DNA from: Nocardioides alcanivorans
GTDB taxonomy: Bacteria; Actinomycetota; Actinomycetes; Propionibacteriales; Nocardioidaceae
DNA: 64,000 bases
Direction: 5' to 3'
Assembly: GCF_021555175.1 (NCBI RefSeq)
Contig: NZ_JAKGRW010000044.1
Location: 1 to 64,000, forward strand
Below, one piece after another: positions 2,876 to 14,967 of this stretch. The translations under genes were made by a program, and so were the position numbers. The notes beneath the pieces were generated by a model, which was not told where the DNA came from, did no database searches, and saw only the letters and a list, made by a program, of their open reading frames with translations. Position 1 is the stretch's first letter. The number at the start of each line of letters is the position of its first letter.

Positions 2876-2974
2876 GTGCAGCAAAGTAGGTCATGGCCCC
2901 GACACACGCTCGCCGATCGGACCAATCCCACCCGAACCGATACACCCGGACACCGCGTGCGAGAAGATGCCGGG

Positions 2975-5900
2975 GTGCCGACCACGATCCATGACCTTCT
3001 TGACCAGTTGCGCTCCACCGCCCTCGACGAGCGGGACAAGGGTGACCGGTTCGAGAGGCTGGTCCGTTCCTACCTGCTGACCGACCCGGAATGGACGGCA
3101 AAGTTCTCCGACGTCTGGCTGTGGTCGGACTGGGAGGGACGCCCCGCCGGGGTGCCGGACATCGGCGTGGATCTGGTCGCTGCCAACCGCGACAGTGACA
3201 CATTCAGCGCGATCCAGTGCAAGTTCTACGACGAGGGCCAGAAGGTCTCCAAGGCCCACATCGACTCCTTCCTCGCGGCCACGATGCGCCCGGAGTTCCA
3301 GATCACCACGCGGTACGTGTTCGACACCTCCGCCGGGTGGACCGGCAACGTCGAGAAGGAAGTACAAGGGGTCGTCCAACGTGTCGACATCGGCTACCTC
3401 GACGACGCAGCCATCGACTGGGACCAATTCCGGTGGGAGACCCCTGAAGTAGTTGTCCCGACCGGCGCAAAGGAACTGTTCCCGCACCAAGCCCGCGCTC
3501 TGGAGAACGTCCGTGCCGGGTTCAACGCCCACAACCGCGGCAAGCTGATCATGGCCTGCGGCACCGGCAAGACCTTCACCTCCCTGCGTATCGCCGAGGA
3601 CCTGGTCGGCGAGGGAGGTTCGGTGCTGTTCTTGGTGCCCTCGATCCAACTGTTGTCGCAGTCGCTGCGCGAATGGATGGCGAACACAACCCTCAGCATT
3701 CGCCCGTTCGCGGTCTGCTCCGACGTCCGGGTGGGCCGCCAGAACAGCGATGACGCCGACATGTCAACCATCGACCTCACCGAACCGGCCACCACCGACG
3801 CCACCACGCTGCTGGCCCGGATGAGCGTCGGCAAGTACGCCCAGCCGCGAATGACCGTGGTCTTCTCCACCTATCAGTCGATCGACGTCATCATCGAAGC
3901 CCAGAAGCAGGGGCTGGCCGCCTTCGACCTGGTCGTCTGCGACGAGGCACACCGCACAACCGGCGCCACCTTGGCCGGCCAGGACGACTCCGCGTTCGTG
4001 AAGGTCCACGATGCTCAGGCGCTGCGCGCGGCAAAGCGGCTGTACATGACCGCCACTCCCAGGGTGTTCGGTGACGAAGTCAAAGCACGGGCCAAGGACG
4101 CCGACGCAGTTCTGGCCGACATGGGCGACGAAACCATCTACGGCCCCGAGTTCCATCGTCTCGGGTTCGGCGACGCCGTCGAGATCGGCCGGCTCACCGA
4201 CTACAAGGTGCTGGTGCTGGCCGTCGACGAGCAGTACGTCGCGGACAACTTCCAACAGGCCATGGCTGAGTCGGGCGAGATCAAACTGGACGACGCCGCA
4301 AAACTGATCGGCTGCTGGAACGGGCTGGCGAAAAACTTCGGCCCCACCGACGCCCTCGGCCACGACACCGGCACCGTCAACCGCGCACCGATGCGCACCG
4401 CGGTCGCCTTCGCCAAGGACATCCGCTCCTCCAAGGCCGCCACCGCAGCCTTCCCACCGCTGGTCGACCGCGCAATCATCGACCTCCCCGACGCCCGGAC
4501 CCCGCTGAAGGTCGAGGCACGCCACGTCGACGGCACCATGCGGATCAGCGAACGCAACGCCCATCTCGCCTGGCTCAAGTCCAATCCCTCCGACACGACG
4601 TGCCGCATTCTCACCAACGCCAAGTGCCTCTCCGAAGGCGTCGACGTGCCCGCTCTCGACGCGGTGCTGTTCCTCACCCCACGCGGCTCACAGGTCGACG
4701 TCGTGCAGTCCGTTGGGCGGGTGATGCGCAAGGCGCCCGGCAAGGAGCTCGGCTACATCATCTTGCCCGTCGTGGTCCCCTCTGGAGTCGCACCCGAGGT
4801 TGCTTTGGCAGACAACGAGCGTTACAAGGTCGTGTGGCAAGTCCTCCAAGCCCTGCGCTCCCACGACGAGCGTTTCCACGCCCTGGTCAACAAGATCGAA
4901 CTGAACAAGGCAAAGCCGACCGACAAGCTCGAAATCATCTCCATCACCACGCCCGTAGGCGACGGAGACCGCGACGGGGCCACCCCGCAGGAGGGCAAGG
5001 AGTACGCCCAAGGCGACACCACCCAAGCGTTCATGGAGTTCGCCACCGAGGCATTCCGCGACGCCATGTACGCCCGTATCGTCAAGAAGGTCGGCGAACG
5101 CCGCTACTGGGAGACCTGGGCCAAGGACGTCGCCGACATTGCAGCCGCTCACGTCACTCGTATCAACGGTCTCCTCGCCGACGTGAACTCGCCCCAGTCA
5201 GCCGAGTTCGAAGTGTTCCTCGCCGGCCTACGCGCCAACTTGAACGACAACATCTCCCGCGCTGAGGCGGTCGACATGTTGGCCCAGCACATGGTCACCC
5301 GGCCGATCTTCGAAGCGCTGTTCGACGGCTACGACTTTGCGACCACCAACCCCGTCGCCAAGATCATGGAACTGATGCTCGCCAGCCTCGACGAGCATCC
5401 CCTCGGCGCAGAGAACCAGACCCTCGAGGGGTTCTACGACTCTGTGCGCCGCAGGGTCGCCGGCGTCGACAACGCCGAAGGCAAGCAACGCATCCTCGTC
5501 GAGCTCTACGACAAGTTCTTCGCCGTCGCGTTCAAGAAAACCGTCGACAAACTCGGCATCGTCTACACCCCCATCGAGATCGTCGACTTCATCCTGCGCT
5601 CCGCTGACGCAGTGCTGCGCCAGGAGTTTGGCCAGGGCCTGACCGATGAGGGCGTGACGATTCTCGACCCCTTCACCGGCACCGGCACCTTCCTCGTCCG
5701 ACTCCTCCAGTCCGGGCTAATCGAGCCGCACGACCTGGCGCGCAAGTACGCAACCGAGATGTACGCCTCCGAGATCCTGCTACTGGCCTACTACATCGCC
5801 TGCGTCAACATCGAGCAGACCTACGCCGAGCAGATCGCCGCCATTGACCCGACGCAGGCAGCGGAGCCGTTCAACGGCCTGATCCTCACCGACACGTTCC

Positions 5901-7777
5901 AGTCCTGGGAACCCCATGACAGAACAGATGACGAACTCTTCGTCGAGAACAACGCCCGCCTACAGCGGCTCAAGAACCTCGACATCACCGTCATCGTCGG
6001 CAACCCGCCCTACTCATCCGGACAAGACTCCGCCAACGACAACAACGCCAACGAGTCCTACCCCGCTTTGGATGCAGAGATCCGCGACACGTACGCGAAA
6101 CTCTCCACGGCCACCAACAAGAACTCGCTCTACGACTCCTACATCCGCGCCATCAAGTGGGCCACGCTGCGGATCAAGGACCGCGGGGTCATCGCGTTCG
6201 TCACCAACGGCGGCTTCCTCGACTCCAACACTGCCGACGGCATGCGAAAGACCTTGGCGGACGAGTTCAGCGCCATCCACATCTACAACCTGCGCGGCAA
6301 CCAACGCACCGCCGGCGAACAGTCCCGCAAGGAAGGCGGCAAGGTCTTCGGGGCAGGCAGCCGGGCCACGGTGGCGATCACGGTGCTCGTCAAAGACCCT
6401 GGCGCGACCGGCCCAACCAAAGTCCACTACAGCGAGGTGGGCGACTATCTCACCCGTGAGGAAAAGCTGGGCCAGGTCGCAGATAGCATCGACGTCACGA
6501 GGCTGGCGACGCTTGAGATTGAGCCGAACGAACACGGGGATTGGATCAACCAGCGGCGTGAAGACTTCGGCAATTTCCCGACTTTGTCTGCGGTCTTCGG
6601 CACCACGGCATACGGAGTGCTGACGTCCAGAGATTCGTGGGTGTATCAGTCTTCCGAAGCCGACTTGCTATCCAACGTCAAGGCATTTCTCAAAGCATTT
6701 CATGAGTCGGTCGCCACGGAGCAACGCGTCATGGATTCGCGGCGCATGAGTTGGTCTGAGTCCCTCGAGAAGGCCTGGGGCCAGCGACGGAGTCCAGCCT
6801 TGGATCCGAGCCAAGTACGCGTGGCGCTCTATCGGCCGTTCTTCCGGCAGTTCCTGTACTACGACGGTCTTCTGATCCATCGGCGGGGAGTCACACCCCG
6901 GTTGGCGCCAGTGCCGGAGGTCCGCAACCCCGGCTACTACGTACTGAACCCCGGGGCGGCGAAACCATTCAGCCTAGTCATGACCGAGATCGTCCCAGAT
7001 GTCGCCTTGTTCGGCTCGAACTCTGGTCAATGGTGCACGCGCTACAGCTACGAACGCGTCGACGACTCCGGAATGTTGGATCTCGGAGACAGCGAGGAAG
7101 TCATCGACGGCTACCGACGGATCGACAACATCACAGATGACGCGCTCGCCCGATTCCAGGCCGCGTACCCCGGCCAAGCGATCTCCAAGGACGACATCTT
7201 CTTCTACGTCTACGGGCTGCTGCACTCAACGGAGTACCGCGAGACCTACGCAGCCGACCTGAGGAAGATGCTGCCGCGCATCCCGATGGTCCGTGACTTC
7301 GCGCGCTTCGCTGAAGCGGGGCGGCGCCTGTCCGATCTGCATGTGGGCTACGAGGCCGTTGGGCCGTATCCCCTCGAGGGCCTCGACGTGGAGCCGACTG
7401 GTGACCCGTATGACTTCTTCGCGGTGGGCGACAAGAAGATGAGGTTCGCAAAGCCCACTGCGGAGCAGAAGGCGGCGGGCGAGCGGCATGACCGCACGGT
7501 GATTTACTACAACGACCGGATCACGCTGTCAGGGATTCCCGACGACGCGTACCGCTACATGCTGGGCAGCAGGTCGGCGATCGAGTGGATCATCGACCGG
7601 TATTACGTGAAGACCGACAAGAAGTCCGGGATCGTGAACGATCCGAACGACTGGTCGCGTGAGGTGGGCGATCCTCGCTACATCGTGGACCTGTTGGCCC
7701 GGATTGTGACGGTGAGTGTGGAGACGCTGAAGATCGTCGACGGTCTGCCGCCGTTGGACATCATTGAAGGTGCCTGA
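2975..7777 (+). CDS. Type ISP restriction-modification enzyme (nuclease-helicase-methyltransferase)
   Basis: A single polypeptide of about 1600 residues that should both methylate adenine in its target and cut unmodified foreign DNA after translocation, like LlaGI and LlaBIII. In order: Mrr-like nuclease (residues 1-130; D near 62, QCK at 81-83), SF2 helicase (Walker A ACGTGKT near 195, DEAH near 323), N6-adenine methyltransferase (FTGTGTF near 898, NPPY near 1010) and a C-terminal target-recognition region. All key motifs look intact. I chose GTG 2975, giving VPTTIHDLLDQL, because family members start with this helix; the frame is open from ATG 2876, which would overlap the divergent lipoprotein start. 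The stop overlaps the next gene. Confidence 0.93.
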   Translation: MPTTIHDLLDQLRSTALDERDKGDRFERLVRSYLLTDPEWTAKFSDVWLWSDWEGRPAGVPDIGVDLVAANRDSDTFSAIQCKFYDEGQKVSKAHIDSFLAATMRPEFQITTRYVFDTSAGWTGNVEKEVQGVVQRVDIGYLDDAAIDWDQFRWETPEVVVPTGAKELFPHQARALENVRAGFNAHNRGKLIMACGTGKTFTSLRIAEDLVGEGGSVLFLVPSIQLLSQSLREWMANTTLSIRPFAVCSDVRVGRQNSDDADMSTIDLTEPATTDATTLLARMSVGKYAQPRMTVVFSTYQSIDVIIEAQKQGLAAFDLVVCDEAHRTTGATLAGQDDSAFVKVHDAQALRAAKRLYMTATPRVFGDEVKARAKDADAVLADMGDETIYGPEFHRLGFGDAVEIGRLTDYKVLVLAVDEQYVADNFQQAMAESGEIKLDDAAKLIGCWNGLAKNFGPTDALGHDTGTVNRAPMRTAVAFAKDIRSSKAATAAFPPLVDRAIIDLPDARTPLKVEARHVDGTMRISERNAHLAWLKSNPSDTTCRILTNAKCLSEGVDVPALDAVLFLTPRGSQVDVVQSVGRVMRKAPGKELGYIILPVVVPSGVAPEVALADNERYKVVWQVLQALRSHDERFHALVNKIELNKAKPTDKLEIISITTPVGDGDRDGATPQEGKEYAQGDTTQAFMEFATEAFRDAMYARIVKKVGERRYWETWAKDVADIAAAHVTRINGLLADVNSPQSAEFEVFLAGLRANLNDNISRAEAVDMLAQHMVTRPIFEALFDGYDFATTNPVAKIMELMLASLDEHPLGAENQTLEGFYDSVRRRVAGVDNAEGKQRILVELYDKFFAVAFKKTVDKLGIVYTPIEIVDFILRSADAVLRQEFGQGLTDEGVTILDPFTGTGTFLVRLLQSGLIEPHDLARKYATEMYASEILLLAYYIACVNIEQTYAEQIAAIDPTQAAEPFNGLILTDTFQSWEPHDRTDDELFVENNARLQRLKNLDITVIVGNPPYSSGQDSANDNNANESYPALDAEIRDTYAKLSTATNKNSLYDSYIRAIKWATLRIKDRGVIAFVTNGGFLDSNTADGMRKTLADEFSAIHIYNLRGNQRTAGEQSRKEGGKVFGAGSRATVAITVLVKDPGATGPTKVHYSEVGDYLTREEKLGQVADSIDVTRLATLEIEPNEHGDWINQRREDFGNFPTLSAVFGTTAYGVLTSRDSWVYQSSEADLLSNVKAFLKAFHESVATEQRVMDSRRMSWSESLEKAWGQRRSPALDPSQVRVALYRPFFRQFLYYDGLLIHRRGVTPRLAPVPEVRNPGYYVLNPGAAKPFSLVMTEIVPDVALFGSNSGQWCTRYSYERVDDSGMLDLGDSEEVIDGYRRIDNITDDALARFQAAYPGQAISKDDIFFYVYGLLHSTEYRETYAADLRKMLPRIPMVRDFARFAEAGRRLSDLHVGYEAVGPYPLEGLDVEPTGDPYDFFAVGDKKMRFAKPTAEQKAAGERHDRTVIYYNDRITLSGIPDDAYRYMLGSRSAIEWIIDRYYVKTDKKSGIVNDPNDWSREVGDPRYIVDLLARIVTVSVETLKIVDGLPPLDIIEGA

Positions 7778-8559
7778 TGAGCGCCCCGTTGGACGGTGGG
7801 GAGTTGGCGGTGTTCGATCGGCGCGCGGAGGTCGAGGCCCTGCTGAGAGAGGACACCACGCTGTTGGGCCGCTACTGGGGCTATCTCCAGGAGGACCTGC
7901 CCAAGGAACAGATGGCTGAGCGTGAGGCCATCGAGACGACGGGTTGGACGAGCAACTATGCCTTCCTGCTCTCGGTAGTTCGCGATGGTGAGGTCACCAC
8001 GAAGCCGTCGGTGGCGCGCGGAGCTGCGGGACGGCTGCGGGCGTGGTTGCGCAGCAAGCCGCTGAGTGAGCAGTTGCGTGAGGAGTTCACGAAGCAGGAG
8101 CGGGTGCTGGCCGCGGTTGCTGAGGACCGGGTGGCCCAGGCGAGCGAGGATGAGGAAGCACACCGTTCGACGGTGGAAGCCGAGAGCGCCAACGTCCCCG
8201 GGATCTACGTCTACACGTTGCCGCACTACCTGCGTCATCCATACGAACCGGACACCGGCCGGACCTTGCTGAAGGTGGGGCACTCCGCGGTGGATGCAGT
8301 TCACCGTGCCGGCGCGCAATCACGGTTCACCGCGTTGCCGGAGGATCCGGTGTTGTTGCGGGTCTACCCGTGTGCGCAGTCGTTGGTTGTGGAGCGGCGG
8401 TTCCATGCGTGGCTGGAGGACGCCGATCACCAGAGGCCGCGTTCGACGCGCGCTGGGCGCGAGTGGTTCGTGACCTCGACGAAGTTTCTGGACCGGGTTG
8501 CGAGGGTGATGGACCTTGAGGTGCAGGTGGTGAACGAGCTCGACGGATTCTTGGAGTGA
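7777..8559 (+). CDS. GIY-YIG / T5orf172-type protein coupled to the type ISP enzyme
   Basis: This 260-residue protein overlaps the type ISP stop (TGATG), so the two are translationally coupled. Residues 1-130 are helical and charged with no recognised domain. Residues 142-235 match a GIY-YIG-like fold: GIYVY (142-146), KVGHS (166-170) in the YIG position, an arginine at 183, a candidate catalytic glutamate in VVERRFH (206) and GREWF (228-231). Nicking activity is possible; so is a degenerate, structural role. The coupling suggests it works with the restriction enzyme, for example in cleavage or damage processing. That role is inferred. Confidence 0.75.
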   Translation: MSAPLDGGELAVFDRRAEVEALLREDTTLLGRYWGYLQEDLPKEQMAEREAIETTGWTSNYAFLLSVVRDGEVTTKPSVARGAAGRLRAWLRSKPLSEQLREEFTKQERVLAAVAEDRVAQASEDEEAHRSTVEAESANVPGIYVYTLPHYLRHPYEPDTGRTLLKVGHSAVDAVHRAGAQSRFTALPEDPVLLRVYPCAQSLVVERRFHAWLEDADHQRPRSTRAGREWFVTSTKFLDRVARVMDLEVQVVNELDGFLE

Positions 8560-8781: not shown

Positions 8782-9357
8782 GTGGATGTCTCTGGCGATG
8801 ACTTGGTGCCGATGCTGGTGGATTGGAACTACCGCCAAGCCGAGCAGCGGCTGAGGTTCCAGGCGGATTCGGTCGACCTTGCCGAGGCGCGCGACCTGAT
8901 TCTGTATCGGTGCTTGGCGCCCGAGGTAGAGCTGCCGGTCTTGCAGGAGGGCGTCCCAACGTCGTATGGCACCCCAGTGCCGTGGGTGGCCGCGCCGGCG
9001 ATCGAACGTCCAGTGCTTGAGTTGTTGAGAGGTCCCAAGAGCACCTTTTTCAGCGTGGCTCGCGAGGGCCAGGTGTTCCCGAACTTCGTCAAAGGTTTCC
9101 ATCTACGCAATCGGCGGATTCCAGTCGCGGGGTTGAGCCCGTTGCTCGACCACTTCGCGGAGCGTCTGCAGGATCATCGACGAAGCGACGGTGGTCGTCT
9201 CCAGTTCGCGAGCACTCGCCTGTTTGAAGGTGAGTTCCTCCGGGCGGGGTGTGGGCGATGCGGGCACCTGCTGGGGTTTGTCGTGGATGAGGGTCGGGAT
9301 CCTGACCTCGGTTCAGCGGTCCTCTTCAGTAGCCTCAAGGCACCGTGTCACGACTGA
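8782..9357 (+). CDS. Hypothetical protein
   Basis: A GTG start at 8782 gives 191 residues (VDVSGDDLVPMLVDWNYR). I do not recognise it. The sequence is of ordinary globular composition, with an acidic and aromatic first half and a CGRCGH pair of cysteines near residue 155 that could bind metal. The opposite strand is also open, but its product is less protein-like. It lies 220 bp after the GIY-YIG gene on the same strand, in the accessory region, and may be cargo of the same defence cluster. Confidence 0.45.
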   Translation: MDVSGDDLVPMLVDWNYRQAEQRLRFQADSVDLAEARDLILYRCLAPEVELPVLQEGVPTSYGTPVPWVAAPAIERPVLELLRGPKSTFFSVAREGQVFPNFVKGFHLRNRRIPVAGLSPLLDHFAERLQDHRRSDGGRLQFASTRLFEGEFLRAGCGRCGHLLGFVVDEGRDPDLGSAVLFSSLKAPCHD

Positions 9358-9726
9358 TCAAATGTGGCCGGTGGAGGCACGTTCAACGTTGTGCCGCCTC
9401 GCTTGACGCCGCTCCTCGCGATCTCCGGACATCCCGGGGCGGTTCAGACCTCGGCTTGCTGTTTCACCAGCATGTTGGCCCATGCCCCGCGGTGCTTGCA
9501 GGTGAACCCGAGACGAGGCGGGGCGGGCGACTGCGTATCACCTCCTTCTTGTCGCCTGCCCGACTCGCTTCGTTACTTCACGGGGCTGCGTGTTCTGTTG
9601 AGTTGTCAAGATGCCTGCCGAACCGGGATCTGGTTCGTGCGGATGCCCGGCGATGAGCATCAACGTCCGGCGAGGTGATCCGGAGCGCAATCCCTGCCAT
9701 CACGGCCGGCACGCACGCGCGGAGGA
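9358..9726. other. Stretch without a convincing gene
   Basis: About 370 bp between the rightward hypothetical gene and the terminator of the leftward gene. Short frames are open on both strands, but their products are Pro/Arg/Cys-rich and have no clear ribosome binding site. A 12-bp word, TTGAGTTGTCAA at 9598-9609, recurs exactly at 14970-14981 next to the 5' end of ssrA. This may be remnant or regulatory DNA; nothing more can be supported. Confidence 0.4.
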
Positions 9727-10371: not shown

Positions 10372-12432
10372 GTGAGCAAGCAGAAGCAGACCCAGAACAC
10401 GGTCCCCTCGACCCGCCCCACCGCGAAGGCTTGGCACGACCGCGCCACGGGCGACCTCAGCACCTGGGCGGAGGGATACAACCCCAGCAGCGAGCGCGCC
10501 GCGGCCGTCTGGACGACGCACCGAGACCACCTCGCGCCCTGGATCTCGGCCGCGCCGGCCGCCGGTGTCACCGAAGCGCGACGCATCGCCAGCGCCGTCC
10601 TGGAACTCCTGGCGTGGTCACTGCCGCTCGTCAACGACCTCGATGAGGCGATGTCCGAGGACTCCCTCCAGCGGTTCGTGCGGGCAAACCCCACCAGTCT
10701 CGGAGATGGCGCCCTTGGCAACATCCGCGGTCGCGTACGCCGCGTCCTGAAGGCCCGCGCCGCGCTCGACGCCGGACACTCCACGCACGAGGCCGAGAAC
10801 AGCAAGGCATCGGAGACCACGAACCGTCGGCCGAGCACGGCTGACGAGTCCGCGTCCACCCGCCCGCTCCCGCCCGTCTACACCGCGGAGGTCTGGTCCC
10901 TGCTGACGACGGCCGCGGAGGACGACGCAGTCCTTGCTGCGTCCCTCCAGAGCCCGGTCGGCCTGAGCACCACTGCGTGGACACACGCACGAGCGGTCGC
11001 CAAGGAACTGGGGGTCGACCTGACCAAGGCGCAGGTGCGGCGAACCCAGCACGTGCACGCGCTCAGCCACCCGATGGCCGCCCCTCTGTCGGCGGCGCTG
11101 CACGGGCTCGGAGCGACTCGCCGCACCGCCACCGAAGCAGCCCTCCTGCTGCCGACGGTCGACCAGGCGGTCTACCGCGAGATCTTGCGCGAAGGGACAG
11201 CCCCCGCGGCCGGAACGAGCAAAGACGATGCAGCTCTCCGCGGCGACTGCACCAGGACGTCACGGCAGCACAGTGAGGACCACCTCGGCACGACCGAGAT
11301 CGAGGCACCCGTCCACCCCGCACCCGGAGGTTCGTCCACCGTGTCCACTAACCCGCACCACGCGTCACCTGAGAAATCCCACCCTGAAAACGGAACCCAG
11401 CCGGCCGCTCCGGCACGCCGCCGCCGAAAGCCCTCGGCCCGCCAGATGCGCTTGGCCGTAGCCGCGGCCAACGCCGAGCGTGAGACCAGGGCAGCGTCGC
11501 TGCCGGAGTCCATGCGGACCTACATCCGCGAGAATTACATCTCTCTCGAAGCGGACGTCCGCCCGCACTGGGCCCAGCTCAAGGGTGCTGTCGAGGCCAC
11601 CTTGGCTGCCTCGTCGGTGCGTGGGGAAGACAGCATGCGCAAGCACGTGACCCACCTGGCCTACTTCTTTCACTGGGCACGCACTGTCGCACTCCCGCTG
11701 GAGCCCTCGACCCTCACCCGCACTAACGTCGGCCGTTACGACAGCGAAGTGCTGGTCGACGCTGGCGGTTCGACGCGCCAGACACGGCGTTCCCGCTTGA
11801 TGGCGATGGCCGATCAGATCCACCCCGAAGATGCACCGGTCAAGGGGCCGCCCCTGGCTCACCGCAGCGTCGCCCCGCCGTACAGCCTGTCGGAGATGGC
11901 GGTCATCCGACGGGTGGCGCAGGTGCAGCCCACGAGGCAGCTGGTGCGTCAGATGTGCTTGCTGGTCGGCCTCGGCGCAGGCGCAGGCATCGACTCCACC
12001 GACATCAAGCGTCTACGGGAGAGCGACGTGACAGACCACGGCCCGGACACGGGCATCGAGGTCCACGTCACCAACCTCCGCCGCAGCAAGGACAACACCG
12101 AGAAGCGCAATCAGCGCACCGTGTGGGTCCTGCGCGAGTACGAGGACATGGTCCGCATCGGACTCGAGGGAGCCAAACGAGGACATCTCCTGCTCGGCCG
12201 GGACGCGGAACGCGCCAACGTGGCCGCCAGCGTCTTCGCGCGTGCCGTGCTGAGCAAGGAGGTGCCGGAGCTCGCGCAGGCGCGTCTGCGTTCCACGTGG
12301 CTGGCCACCCACCTGCAGCGCACCACTCCCCTCAACGTCCTGCTGCAGGCAGCCGGACTGACGACAGCCCGGACCCTCGTCGACCTCCTGGAACACCTGC
12401 CGAAGAGCGCGGACGCAGCCGTTCTCCGCTGA
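10372..12432 (+). CDS. Tyrosine-recombinase-like protein lacking catalytic residues
   Basis: About 686 residues from GTG 10372 (VSKQKQTQNTV); a TTG at 10336 would add 12. The first 350 residues are unrecognised and Ala/Thr-rich. A core-binding-like helical region (MRKHVTHLAYFFHWARTVAL) precedes a segment laid out like the catalytic domain of phage integrases. At box I, where TGLR is expected, the sequence is VGLGAGAGIDSTDIKRLR. At box II (LRSTWLATHL) only one arginine remains. The Gly-His and the nucleophilic tyrosine positions are absent (LTTARTLVDLLEHL). It is therefore probably DNA-binding but not a recombinase. It lies 91 bp before a DDE transposase and upstream of ssrA. Confidence 0.65.
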   Translation: MSKQKQTQNTVPSTRPTAKAWHDRATGDLSTWAEGYNPSSERAAAVWTTHRDHLAPWISAAPAAGVTEARRIASAVLELLAWSLPLVNDLDEAMSEDSLQRFVRANPTSLGDGALGNIRGRVRRVLKARAALDAGHSTHEAENSKASETTNRRPSTADESASTRPLPPVYTAEVWSLLTTAAEDDAVLAASLQSPVGLSTTAWTHARAVAKELGVDLTKAQVRRTQHVHALSHPMAAPLSAALHGLGATRRTATEAALLLPTVDQAVYREILREGTAPAAGTSKDDAALRGDCTRTSRQHSEDHLGTTEIEAPVHPAPGGSSTVSTNPHHASPEKSHPENGTQPAAPARRRRKPSARQMRLAVAAANAERETRAASLPESMRTYIRENYISLEADVRPHWAQLKGAVEATLAASSVRGEDSMRKHVTHLAYFFHWARTVALPLEPSTLTRTNVGRYDSEVLVDAGGSTRQTRRSRLMAMADQIHPEDAPVKGPPLAHRSVAPPYSLSEMAVIRRVAQVQPTRQLVRQMCLLVGLGAGAGIDSTDIKRLRESDVTDHGPDTGIEVHVTNLRRSKDNTEKRNQRTVWVLREYEDMVRIGLEGAKRGHLLLGRDAERANVAASVFARAVLSKEVPELAQARLRSTWLATHLQRTTPLNVLLQAAGLTTARTLVDLLEHLPKSADAAVLR

Positions 12433-12523
12433 CGGCTGGCTGGCGGGTGCGGCGATTGGCATCCACATCACCGGTCCTCACGGTCCCGGTCGTCCTTCAA
12501 CCAAGACGACAGGAACAGAACCC

Positions 12524-14455
12524 ATGTCCAGCCCGACCCCTACCGACGACTCGAACTTCGCAGAGGGAATCAACCCCACCCTCGCGCCGCTCATCGCGAC
12601 GCACGACACCAAGGAGGCCAAGATCTCCGCCACGATCTCCGCCAAGATTCGTCTCCACCCCAACCTGCTTGCGCAGCTCGACGCTGCCTTCCTCCGCCAC
12701 CACTGGCTCGTGAAGTCCACCGGCGTCGGCGAGCTCCTGGACCGCCACTGCCGTAGCTCGAACCGCGGCCGCAAGAAGCAGGGACTGGACGGCGCCCTCT
12801 ACTACGCCCTCCAGCTGACCGCGGTCTTCACCACCGGGCAGGCCACTGTCGAGCAGATGTACGTCATCGCGCACTCCCTGCCCCTCGATACCCGGGTGAA
12901 GTTCAAGATCGTGGTCTACGAGAACAAGAAGAAGGTCCGCGAGCTCACCCGCAAGCAGCTGTACACGATGACCGAGGGCCTCGGGAAGAACCTCTCCTAC
13001 ACCACCGACTGCCTCACCGACACGGAGCGGCGAAGCCTCCAAGAGGAGGACCAGAAGGCGCTGCTTCGAGAGCGGCAGGCCGAGCGGCACGCGGTGGTGA
13101 ACGACATCGTCACCCGGCTGTTGACGGGAACGCATCTCATCGACGTCGGGCACGGCACCTACGCCATCGACGACACCAGCATCTGGGCCTGGTCCAAGGC
13201 CCCACGCGGCTCTCGACACCAAGAGGGCGGCCAGGACCGTCCCCTCACCGACGAGGACAACACCCAGGCGCTCCCGCGCGACGCCTCCATCCAGGAGCCG
13301 TACGTCCAGGTGGCACCGGACATCCTCGCGGCGGCTGGCGAAGAGGCCGAGCGACGCAATCCAGCTTCGTGGCTCTGTCCTGACGCCGCCTGGGGTGGGA
13401 AGACCGCCAAGAGCGGGGCGCAGATCGGGATCTACGGTTACAAGGCCCACGTCGTCGTGAACACCAACGACCCCGCTCGCAAGGTCCCGCTGCCCGTCCT
13501 CATCCAGGCGCTCGAGCTCACTCCCGCAAACGCCGACATCGTCGAGGTGTCTCTGCGGCTCGTGGACCAGATCCGGGAGCGGGCCCCGTTCGTCCGTCTC
13601 ATCGGTGACCGTCACTACGGCTACAAGCGCTACGACCGGTGGGCCATGGAGCTCTGGCGGCGCCGGGTCCACCAGGTCCTCGACCTGCGCGTCGACAAGC
13701 CCGGGGCCATGGACCAGTACGGCTCGAAGGTGCTCGACGGCCGCCCGCACTGCCCCGGCATGGCGCCCCACCTCGAGGCGTTGACTCCCTCAGACGACCC
13801 CACGGAGCAGGCTGAATTCCGGAACCAGATTGCCTACCGGGAGAAGTTCGCCCTGCGCATGGTCAAGGGCCCCCTGGCATCACCCACGACGACGGCTGCG
13901 GGTGAGGACGACCCCAAAGTGGGTGTCACCCGCTGGCAGTGCCCTGCGGTCGCCGGCACCGTGGGCTGCCCCCTGCGTCAGGGCACCGTGGTTTTGGCGC
14001 GACAGGTCGGAGCTCCCGTGGTTCCCAACCCTCCGCAGGCAGAGGCCCGGGAGCAACTGCCTGCCTGCTGCACCCAGCAGACGATCCAGATCGAGGCCGG
14101 TACGCCGATGAAGTACCTGCAAGAGGACTACTGGGGCAGCGAGCAGTGGGAGCTCGCCTACGCCCTGCGTTCGGCCGTCGAGGCGGTCTTCGGCAACATC
14201 AAGAACCGCGGCACTGAGGACGTACGGCGCGGGTTCGTCCAGGTCGTCGGCCTGCCGCTCGTCACGCTGGCGGTCGCTGCGGCAGCCGCCTGCTACAACA
14301 TCCGCATCCTCGAGAAGCACAGCCGCGAGTCCGGCGAACGGATCAACAGCGCGCTGATGAACCACCCCCTCGACGGGGAGGTCATCGAAAGCCTGATCCT
14401 CCGCGGGGACGAGGTCTTCGAGCACGTCGAGCGACTCGAGCAGACGGCCGCCTGA
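12524..14455 (+). CDS. DDE transposase, IS1182/IS4-like
   Basis: This 643-residue protein has the three acidic residues of a DDE transposase: D in TYAIDDTSIWAW (near 223), D in LIGDRHYGY (near 361), and E in LRSAVEAVFGNIKNRG (near 558), the last being the usual C-terminal signature of IS1182/IS4-like enzymes. A Cys-containing insert (CPAVAGTVGCPL, ACC) lies between the second D and the E. The start MSSPTPTDD follows the recombinase-like gene by 91 bp on the same strand, so the two may form one unit. I could not find matching terminal inverted repeats around the pair, so the element's edges are undefined. Confidence 0.75.
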   Translation: MSSPTPTDDSNFAEGINPTLAPLIATHDTKEAKISATISAKIRLHPNLLAQLDAAFLRHHWLVKSTGVGELLDRHCRSSNRGRKKQGLDGALYYALQLTAVFTTGQATVEQMYVIAHSLPLDTRVKFKIVVYENKKKVRELTRKQLYTMTEGLGKNLSYTTDCLTDTERRSLQEEDQKALLRERQAERHAVVNDIVTRLLTGTHLIDVGHGTYAIDDTSIWAWSKAPRGSRHQEGGQDRPLTDEDNTQALPRDASIQEPYVQVAPDILAAAGEEAERRNPASWLCPDAAWGGKTAKSGAQIGIYGYKAHVVVNTNDPARKVPLPVLIQALELTPANADIVEVSLRLVDQIRERAPFVRLIGDRHYGYKRYDRWAMELWRRRVHQVLDLRVDKPGAMDQYGSKVLDGRPHCPGMAPHLEALTPSDDPTEQAEFRNQIAYREKFALRMVKGPLASPTTTAAGEDDPKVGVTRWQCPAVAGTVGCPLRQGTVVLARQVGAPVVPNPPQAEAREQLPACCTQQTIQIEAGTPMKYLQEDYWGSEQWELAYALRSAVEAVFGNIKNRGTEDVRRGFVQVVGLPLVTLAVAAAAACYNIRILEKHSRESGERINSALMNHPLDGEVIESLILRGDEVFEHVERLEQTAA

Positions 14456-14470
14456 GGACTCTTGACCCGA

Positions 14471-14516
14471 CAACGAGAGGGCCCCAACCACGACCGTGGT
14501 TGGGGCCCTCTCGTTG
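14471..14516. terminator. Perfect 22-bp stem terminator between the transposase and ssrA
   Basis: Arms 14471-14492 and 14495-14516 are perfectly complementary over 22 bp (core GGGCCCCAACCACG) with a 2-nt centre. It lies 15 bp after the transposase stop and, on the other strand, downstream of ssrA, so it can serve both convergent genes. T-rich sequence follows on the plus strand. Confidence 0.85.
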
Positions 14517-14540
14517 TTCTGCTGGGACTGTTGGAGGTCT

Positions 14541-14574
14541 CCCGAGCAGTCCCTAATTCGGGAAACTGTTCGGG
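14541..14574. repeat. Imperfect inverted repeat 25 bp from the ssrA 3' end
   Basis: Arms CCCGAGCAGT (14541-14550) and ACTGTTCGGG (14565-14574) are inverted with one mismatch over 14 bp of spacer. A related word, GGGACTGTTGG, starts just upstream at 14524. It may be the ssrA terminator or binding sites next to an integration site; the sequence does not decide. Confidence 0.45.
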
Positions 14575-14598
14575 CCCATTTTGGGAAAGCCCTCGGCG

Positions 14599-14967
14599 TG
14601 GAGCTGGCGGGAATCGAACCCGCGTCCTAAAGCGCAGTGCCAGGTCTTCTCCGGGTGCAGTCTGCGATGTCGTCTTCTCAGTCCCGGCGCTCGCACAGAC
14701 ACGTCGCCGACAGACTCAGTCACGGAAAAGTCCCGATCACCCTCCGTGACACGGAGTGATCAGCAAGTCTCCTAAATGAGGCCTGGGTCCGGGACGGAGA
14801 CGGATGCCCGGTCAGACCCTTCGATCACCGCAATCAGGCGGCGAGAGCGAAGTCGTTGCGCTTAGCGTTGGCAACTATTGGTTTCCAGCGATCGTTTACG
14901 AGATGACGCTGGCTTCTCGACCCGCTTCCCCTGGGACGTACGTCCCCAGTCGAAACCGATCAGCCCC
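14599..14967 (-). ncRNA. ssrA: Transfer-messenger RNA (tmRNA)
   Basis: tmRNA rescues stalled ribosomes together with SmpB, which is encoded 5 kb away. The 5' end GGGGCTG (complement of 14961-14967) pairs with CAGCTCC at the 3' end (one G-U pair) to form the acceptor stem. The tRNA-like T arm GGTTCGATTCCCGCC is clear, and the 5' domain begins GGGGCTGATCGGTTTCGACTG, as in other actinobacteria. The CCA end is not encoded. The tag frame at 14834-14872 codes for ANAKRNDFALAA. Genes to the left of the 3' end are accessory, as expected where ssrA serves as an integration site. Confidence 0.96.
14834..14872 (-). other. tmRNA proteolysis tag reading frame
   Basis: Encodes ANAKRNDFALAA followed by TGA. 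The LAA end is the degradation signal recognised by ClpXP-type proteases. Confidence 0.95.

Follow-up and report, generated by a model that had tools for sequence, protein, structure and literature searches.

The stretch of DNA examined here (referred to as the window) covered bases 1 to 64,000 of a 67,211-base contig from Nocardioides alcanivorans (NZ_JAKGRW010000044.1); the closest named relative found for this genome was Nocardioides ferulae. The window contains a pair of genes next to ssrA, the gene for transfer-messenger RNA (tmRNA): one for a catalytically dead tyrosine recombinase (YR)-like protein and one for a DDE transposase, the two open reading frames (ORFs) being separated by 91 bp. 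Judged from sequence, these two genes form the transposition module of a site-specific DDE transposon and lie at its right end. The relevant features were as follows.

10372..12432, plus strand: catalytically dead YR-like protein; YR profile match, with Arg II as the sole catalytic residue left
10456..10851, plus strand: N-terminal stretch that resembles the YR-like profile in its core-binding half (profile positions 43-171)
11389..12426, plus strand: core-binding and catalytic-like domains of the YR-like protein; Arg II (R640) codon at 12289-12291
12524..14455, plus strand: DDE transposase, 643 aa, DDE_Tnp_1, distantly IS1182-like
13169-13171, 13607-13609, and 14180-14182, plus strand: codons of the DDE triad (D216, D362, and E553, respectively)
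14470..14517, no strand: perfect 23-bp inverted repeat, terminator-like, 3' of the transposase
14553..14594: right element end, with the terminal inverted repeat (TIR) GAGGGCTTTCCCAAAAT (minus-strand reading) and a second copy of a TTYCCCGAA-type motif
14595..14599: predicted 5-bp target site duplication GGCGT, from tmRNA acceptor position 73 onward
14598..14967, minus strand: ssrA (tmRNA), the target gene

The YR-like ORF may start at GTG 10372 (686 aa) or at TTG 10336 (698 aa). The window protein itself had no direct match in Pfam, NCBIfam, PADLOC, or PHROGs. When an 8-sequence profile of the YR-like family was compared with PDB, archaeal XerA (4a8e; E 1.1e-5) was the sole significant match, and hhalign matched a 20-sequence profile to canonical YRs from this genome at 96.9% probability (E 1.5e-10), a transposase profile scoring 0.1% as a control. 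Pfam Phage_integrase touched 9 of 20 family members at E<=0.1, and PHROGs returned integrase for the 3 relatives scanned. By profile homology, the first protein is a member of the tyrosine recombinase superfamily, in agreement with the phage integrase-type layout described in a first-pass annotation of this DNA. A second core-binding-like stretch in the N-terminal half, encoded by a separate upstream gene in relatives G071, G068, and G316 (E 9e-7 to 2e-4), is possibly a tandem DNA-binding domain.

Catalytic columns were read off an alignment of the family with five canonical YRs. The window protein had D, T, A, R, L, and L in place of the R, K, H, R, H, and Y of the recombinases, and therefore only Arg II was left; no Tyr was found anywhere after it, as the first-pass annotation had stated. 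Among 49 YR-like rows (48 loci, one of which, L147/L163, was entered twice), Arg II was present in all 49, Arg I in 11, the first His in 1, and the second His/Trp in none. Tyr occupied the exact column in 1 of the 49, a loose column in which 2 of the 5 canonical YRs were also out of register. The full R-K-H-R-H/W-Y set was found in none (0/49), in line with the earlier view that the recombinase is inactive. The least degenerate row was G236, with Arg I, the first His, and a nearby Tyr.

The transposase, described previously as intact, matched Pfam DDE_Tnp_1 (E 8e-8), and its D216, D362, and E553 were indeed invariant in alignments of 8 and of 13 sequences (the latter including the window). For the IS1182 equivalog of NCBIfam (NF033551), the score was 45.3 bits and did not reach the cut-off of 270.

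Relatives of the pair were surveyed in about 970 genomes, giving 67 transposase rows (66 loci); L144 and L160 are two rows of one locus, and L160 stands outside both the 40 near-complete and the 21 partial copies counted below. Weak loci (L138, L139, L151, L152, L153, L154/L165, L155, L156, L157, L161, and L162) and duplicates (L110, L111, L128, L131, L147, and L164) were left out of the counts, and class- and phylum-level matches entered them only when the locus had been fetched. The YR-like query matched 8 of 145 related genomes, and the transposase adjoined the YR-like gene in all 8. Transposase profiles matched 24 of 293 genomes at the level of the order, 37 of 394 at that of the class, and 22 of 296 at that of the phylum; these sets overlap, and each holds the window's own genome. 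The YR-like gene lay just upstream in 44 of 44 near-complete transposases among the 67 rows. The pair recurs throughout one bacterial phylum, and the co-occurrence anticipated by the first-pass annotation was borne out. No relatives were found in viral sequence scans, and a plasmid scan gave one weak Streptomyces match. Distances of the YR-like protein and the transposase covaried (r 0.78). A natural module swap was seen between L130 and G285 (L078), with close YR-like proteins and very different transposases, ends, and target tRNAs.

Target sites and element ends

Targets were counted for the 40 near-complete copies whose downstream sequence extended for 700 bp or more. The convergent 3' end of a tRNA or tmRNA gene lay <=350 bp away in 28 of these, and a further three (G071, G068, and G316) reached ssrA 6.4-8.2 kb downstream, across cargo; in G071 and G068 the stretch between the pair and ssrA held type I restriction genes. 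Partial copies were likewise at such an end in 17 cases out of 21. The 45 directly adjacent copies were found at tRNA-Leu (12), tRNA-Ser (9), tmRNA (7), tRNA-Ala (7), tRNA-Gly (4), tRNA-Met (2), tRNA-Tyr (2), tRNA-Val (1), and tRNA-Lys (1), at distances of 76 to 312 bp (median 240). Of the 22 tRNA/tmRNA genes found within the 1.2 Mb surrounding the first elements, 19 stood at the end of an element or remnant. Among the weak loci left out, a convergent tRNA was seen at L152, L157, and L162 and at none of the others. By eye, the element end in G266 (L075) abutted an ATPase-like coding region, not a tRNA.

The element terminus in the window was located at 14594, at the 3' end of ssrA, where the pair had already been said to end; the terminator-like repeat was the sole strong inverted repeat reported by a repeat search. 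In the family, tRNA position 72 was placed from the acceptor stem alone, and the sequence was then read outward. Element ends started about 5 bp past position 72: among 48 ends read from 5 nt past it, G was found at the first four bases in 30, 32, 38, and 32, respectively, and these initial Gs were followed by a TTCACGAAA-type motif, with a second copy about 24 bp further in. A leave-one-out register scan of the 48 ends gave 0 as the best register in 27, a value within 1 nt in 42, and one further off in 6. Some of the shifts stem from uncertain stems or decayed ends, G320, for example, having no recognisable end. The five bases between position 72 and the element end should be the target duplication.

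In 17 elements, left ends were sought by scanning 33-53 kb of upstream sequence for the 20 bp that best matched the right end. The best TIR match was preceded by the exact predicted 5-mer, for which a random 5-mer has a chance of 1 in 1,024, in nine of these (FER, G204, G053, G147, G005, G148, G234, G285, and G068); it was uniquely best in eight of the nine and one of two tied in G068. The left ends of G071 and G316 were homologous to that of G068 and had exact duplications, though they were not the top match of the scan. No left end was found in the upstream scan for G077, G334, G163, G265, G268, or the window, which opens at base 1 of its contig. A candidate at 2767 in the window (12-bp match) was rejected, having no matching duplication and no extension into the rest of the repeat. 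A TGACCTG/CAGGTCA motif was seen some 20-30 bp inside the left end in 7 of the 12 left ends read (window excluded).

The left flank of the element in G204 (L092, L071) was the right end of a different, G071-like element type at the same ssrA, and therefore a second element had landed at the same spot. In G053, the gene left of the element adjoined tRNA-Gly(CCC) in 10 of the 10 best relatives and in 12 of the 16 examined; this empty-site comparison supports one insertion, that of the G053 element at tRNA-Gly.

Since TIRs and short duplications accompany a DDE enzyme, these elements move by transposition, not by integrase recombination; position 73 onward is restored by the duplication, so that the RNA gene remains whole. 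The triad, the TIRs, and the duplication were all found in relatives, the window showing the right end only. The att direct repeats and active integrase of tRNA-integrating YR islands were not what was found: where both ends were located, they carried 5-bp duplications and TIRs. The transposon proposed in the first-pass annotation was upheld by these ends.

Cargo and accessory genes

Two further genes of the window lie upstream of the pair.

2876..7777, plus strand: type ISP/IIG restriction-modification enzyme (1633 aa), probable cargo
7777..8559, plus strand: T5orf172-domain protein, directly after the type ISP/IIG enzyme, probable cargo

Type I restriction-modification genes were found in the elements of N. 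ferulae, G071, G068, and G077. For the window and G077, whose left ends were not found, we infer that the restriction genes are cargo. The region at 8782-9700 had few genes and short odd frames and is possibly decayed sequence between the cargo and the transposition module. An IS3-family transposase occurs at 356-1294, near the contig start, and the contig break may be related to this insertion sequence.

Besides the pair, the smallest element (G005, about 5.9 kb) contained a glyoxalase-like gene and two helix-turn-helix genes. Accessory genes were read in the three smallest elements (G005, G234, and G285), from ORFs of at least 90 aa with high GC content at the third codon position (GC3). Their nine further ORFs matched glyoxalase, helix-turn-helix, or ISL3 transposase families, or nothing, in Pfam, and none was TniQ or a TnsC-type ATPase. 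Because G005 consists of the pair and a few small genes, helper ATPases of the Tn7 type seem unneeded. Small helix-turn-helix genes divergent to the YR-like gene were observed in G005 (L020) and G234 (L076), both HTH_3, and in G285 (L078), with a sub-threshold match to HTH_31.

Role of the recombinase-like protein

The most likely role of the YR-like protein is that of target selector, a plausible, unproven assignment, and we consider that it probably picks the target. The dead YR-like protein would descend from integrases that used tRNA 3' ends as attachment sites, and would act as a protein clamp on the RNA gene, binding it at the T-arm/acceptor end. Once bound, it would position the DDE transposase, the element being joined between positions 72 and 77, and restriction-modification genes would travel as cargo. 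Taken as a whole, the picture of a phylum-wide class of transposons with two genes, where a lone DDE transposase is led directly by a dead integrase to the 72/73 step of tRNA/tmRNA genes without a helper ATPase, restriction systems being spread in this way, seems to us marginally probable. The target selector suggested by the first-pass annotation was retained as plausible, with a precedent in TnsF, although Mantel tests favoured the transposase as the correlate of the target.

Several observations weigh against this reading. In partial Mantel tests, target similarity followed the transposase given the YR-like protein (r 0.23-0.25, p 0.002-0.004), and the reverse test, target against YR given the transposase, was not significant (p 0.31-0.77). 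Among sub-regions, the T-arm alone followed the transposase (p 0.012 and 0.0085); the association of the duplication with the YR-like protein was weak (p 0.012 undereplicated, 0.18 dereplicated), and the other sub-region tests gave nothing for the YR-like protein as target reader. The transposase alignment is longer and less noisy, and the Mantel tests are therefore biased towards the transposase. Target changes numbered 15 on the YR tree and 15 on the DDE tree by anticodon, and 11 and 13, respectively, by amino acid; since these numbers are similar, the trees cannot assign the selector role. L130 and G285 differed in target tRNA at a YR distance of 0.51 and a transposase distance of 2.03.

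Other points against it concern the protein and the sites. An AlphaFold2 model of the YR-like protein, from a 2-sequence alignment, had a predicted local distance difference test (pLDDT) score of 36 and a predicted template modelling (pTM) score of 0.22; this alignment was too shallow, so that the YR fold rests on the profile comparison. A Tyr occurred within 2 columns of the expected place in 24 of the 49 YR-like rows, and its loss is therefore not sure in all rows; the second His/Trp was absent from all 24. The register was not 0 in 21 of the 48 ends. Empty-site tests with two other flank genes found no tRNA/tmRNA gene alongside, either for FTHFS (0 of 11 loci scanned) or for AKR (2 loci scanned). 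The position at tRNA/tmRNA genes, which the first-pass annotation had made a check of its proposal, held for 31 of the 40 near-complete copies and failed for nine (G266, G186, G096, G236, G309, L140, L121, L163, and G071b); an Rfam scan of ten loci without a detected tRNA revealed no other RNA target.

An alternative is that the ends of the element itself, with their paired subterminal motifs, are what the YR-like protein binds and that it aids assembly of the transpososome, the DDE transposase recognising the tRNA/tmRNA end. We regard this division of labour as rather unlikely, if the strongest of the alternatives. It would agree with target similarity tracking transposase distance and not the reverse, and the two motif copies about 24 bp apart would suit a bivalent binder. 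YR-family proteins are, however, the usual recognisers of tRNA and tmRNA 3' ends. TIR similarity was not significantly tied to the YR-like protein given the transposase (p 0.15 and 0.11), and the subterminal stretch followed the transposase in the full set (p 0.002), not when dereplicated (p 0.10). The eukaryotic Dada elements show tRNA genes to be possible targets of a DDE transposon (PMC3706591), whereas TnsF, the published inactive YR of a DDE transposon, binds the target.

It is improbable that the YR-like protein takes no part in target choice, as a remnant of excision or cointegrate handling or as a transcriptional regulator. Direct evidence for such a role was absent, the divergent helix-turn-helix genes indicating at most that regulators occur in these elements; on the other side, the YR-like gene is kept in all 44 near-complete elements, Arg II is conserved in 49 of 49 rows despite wide divergence, and YR distances track transposase distances. 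Ends of tRNA and tmRNA genes are also the classic sites of integrase-borne genomic islands, and the pair could be incidental to an ordinary island that a conventional, active integrase encoded elsewhere in it had placed at ssrA. This is hardly credible and already contradicted by the evidence: TIRs and 5-bp duplications were found in place of long att direct repeats, the 5.9-kb G005 element has only the pair and small genes, and the pair recurs across the phylum.

If the YR-like protein is the selector, inactive integrases would have come to serve as readers of DNA addresses in a system other than Tn7 and far simpler than it, and the system would be a compact, reprogrammable, protein-guided means of insertion. 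Such elements would account for a set of defence islands at tRNA/ssrA genes unexplained by any integrase. Because pairs with a range of target tRNAs occur in nature, the rules that govern target choice can be put to the test. For gene insertion, the interest lies in a precise landing site at which the RNA gene is kept whole.

Comparison with known systems

The closest named transposase family is IS1182 (45 bits versus a cut-off of 270), which differs from the present element in cargo, partner, and target. The first-pass annotation had called the pair the most likely undescribed system in the window; the bacterial transposon family was indeed not found in the open-access literature searched, but the principle has a precedent.

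Dada are eukaryotic DDE transposons targeting tRNA and small nuclear RNA (snRNA) genes with 6-7 bp duplications (Kojima and Jurka 2013, PMC3706591). They resemble the present element in strictly targeting RNA genes and differ in being eukaryotic, with no recombinase-like partner named in the abstract. The TnsD of CAST I-D homes to tRNA-Leu, insertion occurring about 30-33 nt downstream through TnsD and TnsC (PMC10293859); this too is a DDE transposon homing downstream of a tRNA, whereas insertion in the present case falls at positions 73-77. The Tsy element, described in the same paper, moves by active tyrosine recombinases and shows target choice of the YR type outside Tn7. The likeness lies in a YR-type protein and target choice outside Tn7; the present YR lacks the catalytic set and is accompanied by a DDE enzyme.

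The nearest parallel is TnsF of the Tn7-like Tn6022, a YR that has been inactivated, has tandem core-binding domains, and directs its transposon to comM (Faure et al. 2023, PMC10293859). Both proteins are inactivated YRs with (possibly, in the window protein) tandem core-binding domains serving a DDE transposon, target selection having been shown for TnsF. Tn6022 has TniQ and tnsABC, whereas the present element has one IS1182-like DDE transposase, and neither TniQ nor TnsC was seen in G005, G234, or G285, the smallest three that were read. N-terminal zinc fingers are a feature of TnsF, which is directed to comM; the window protein has 2 cysteines in 686 aa and its target is ssrA. A dead YR as target selector has its precedent in TnsF and is not wholly new; what is new relative to TnsF is a DDE setting of just two genes, in which no Tn7 helpers are visible, together with the tRNA/tmRNA target and the range.

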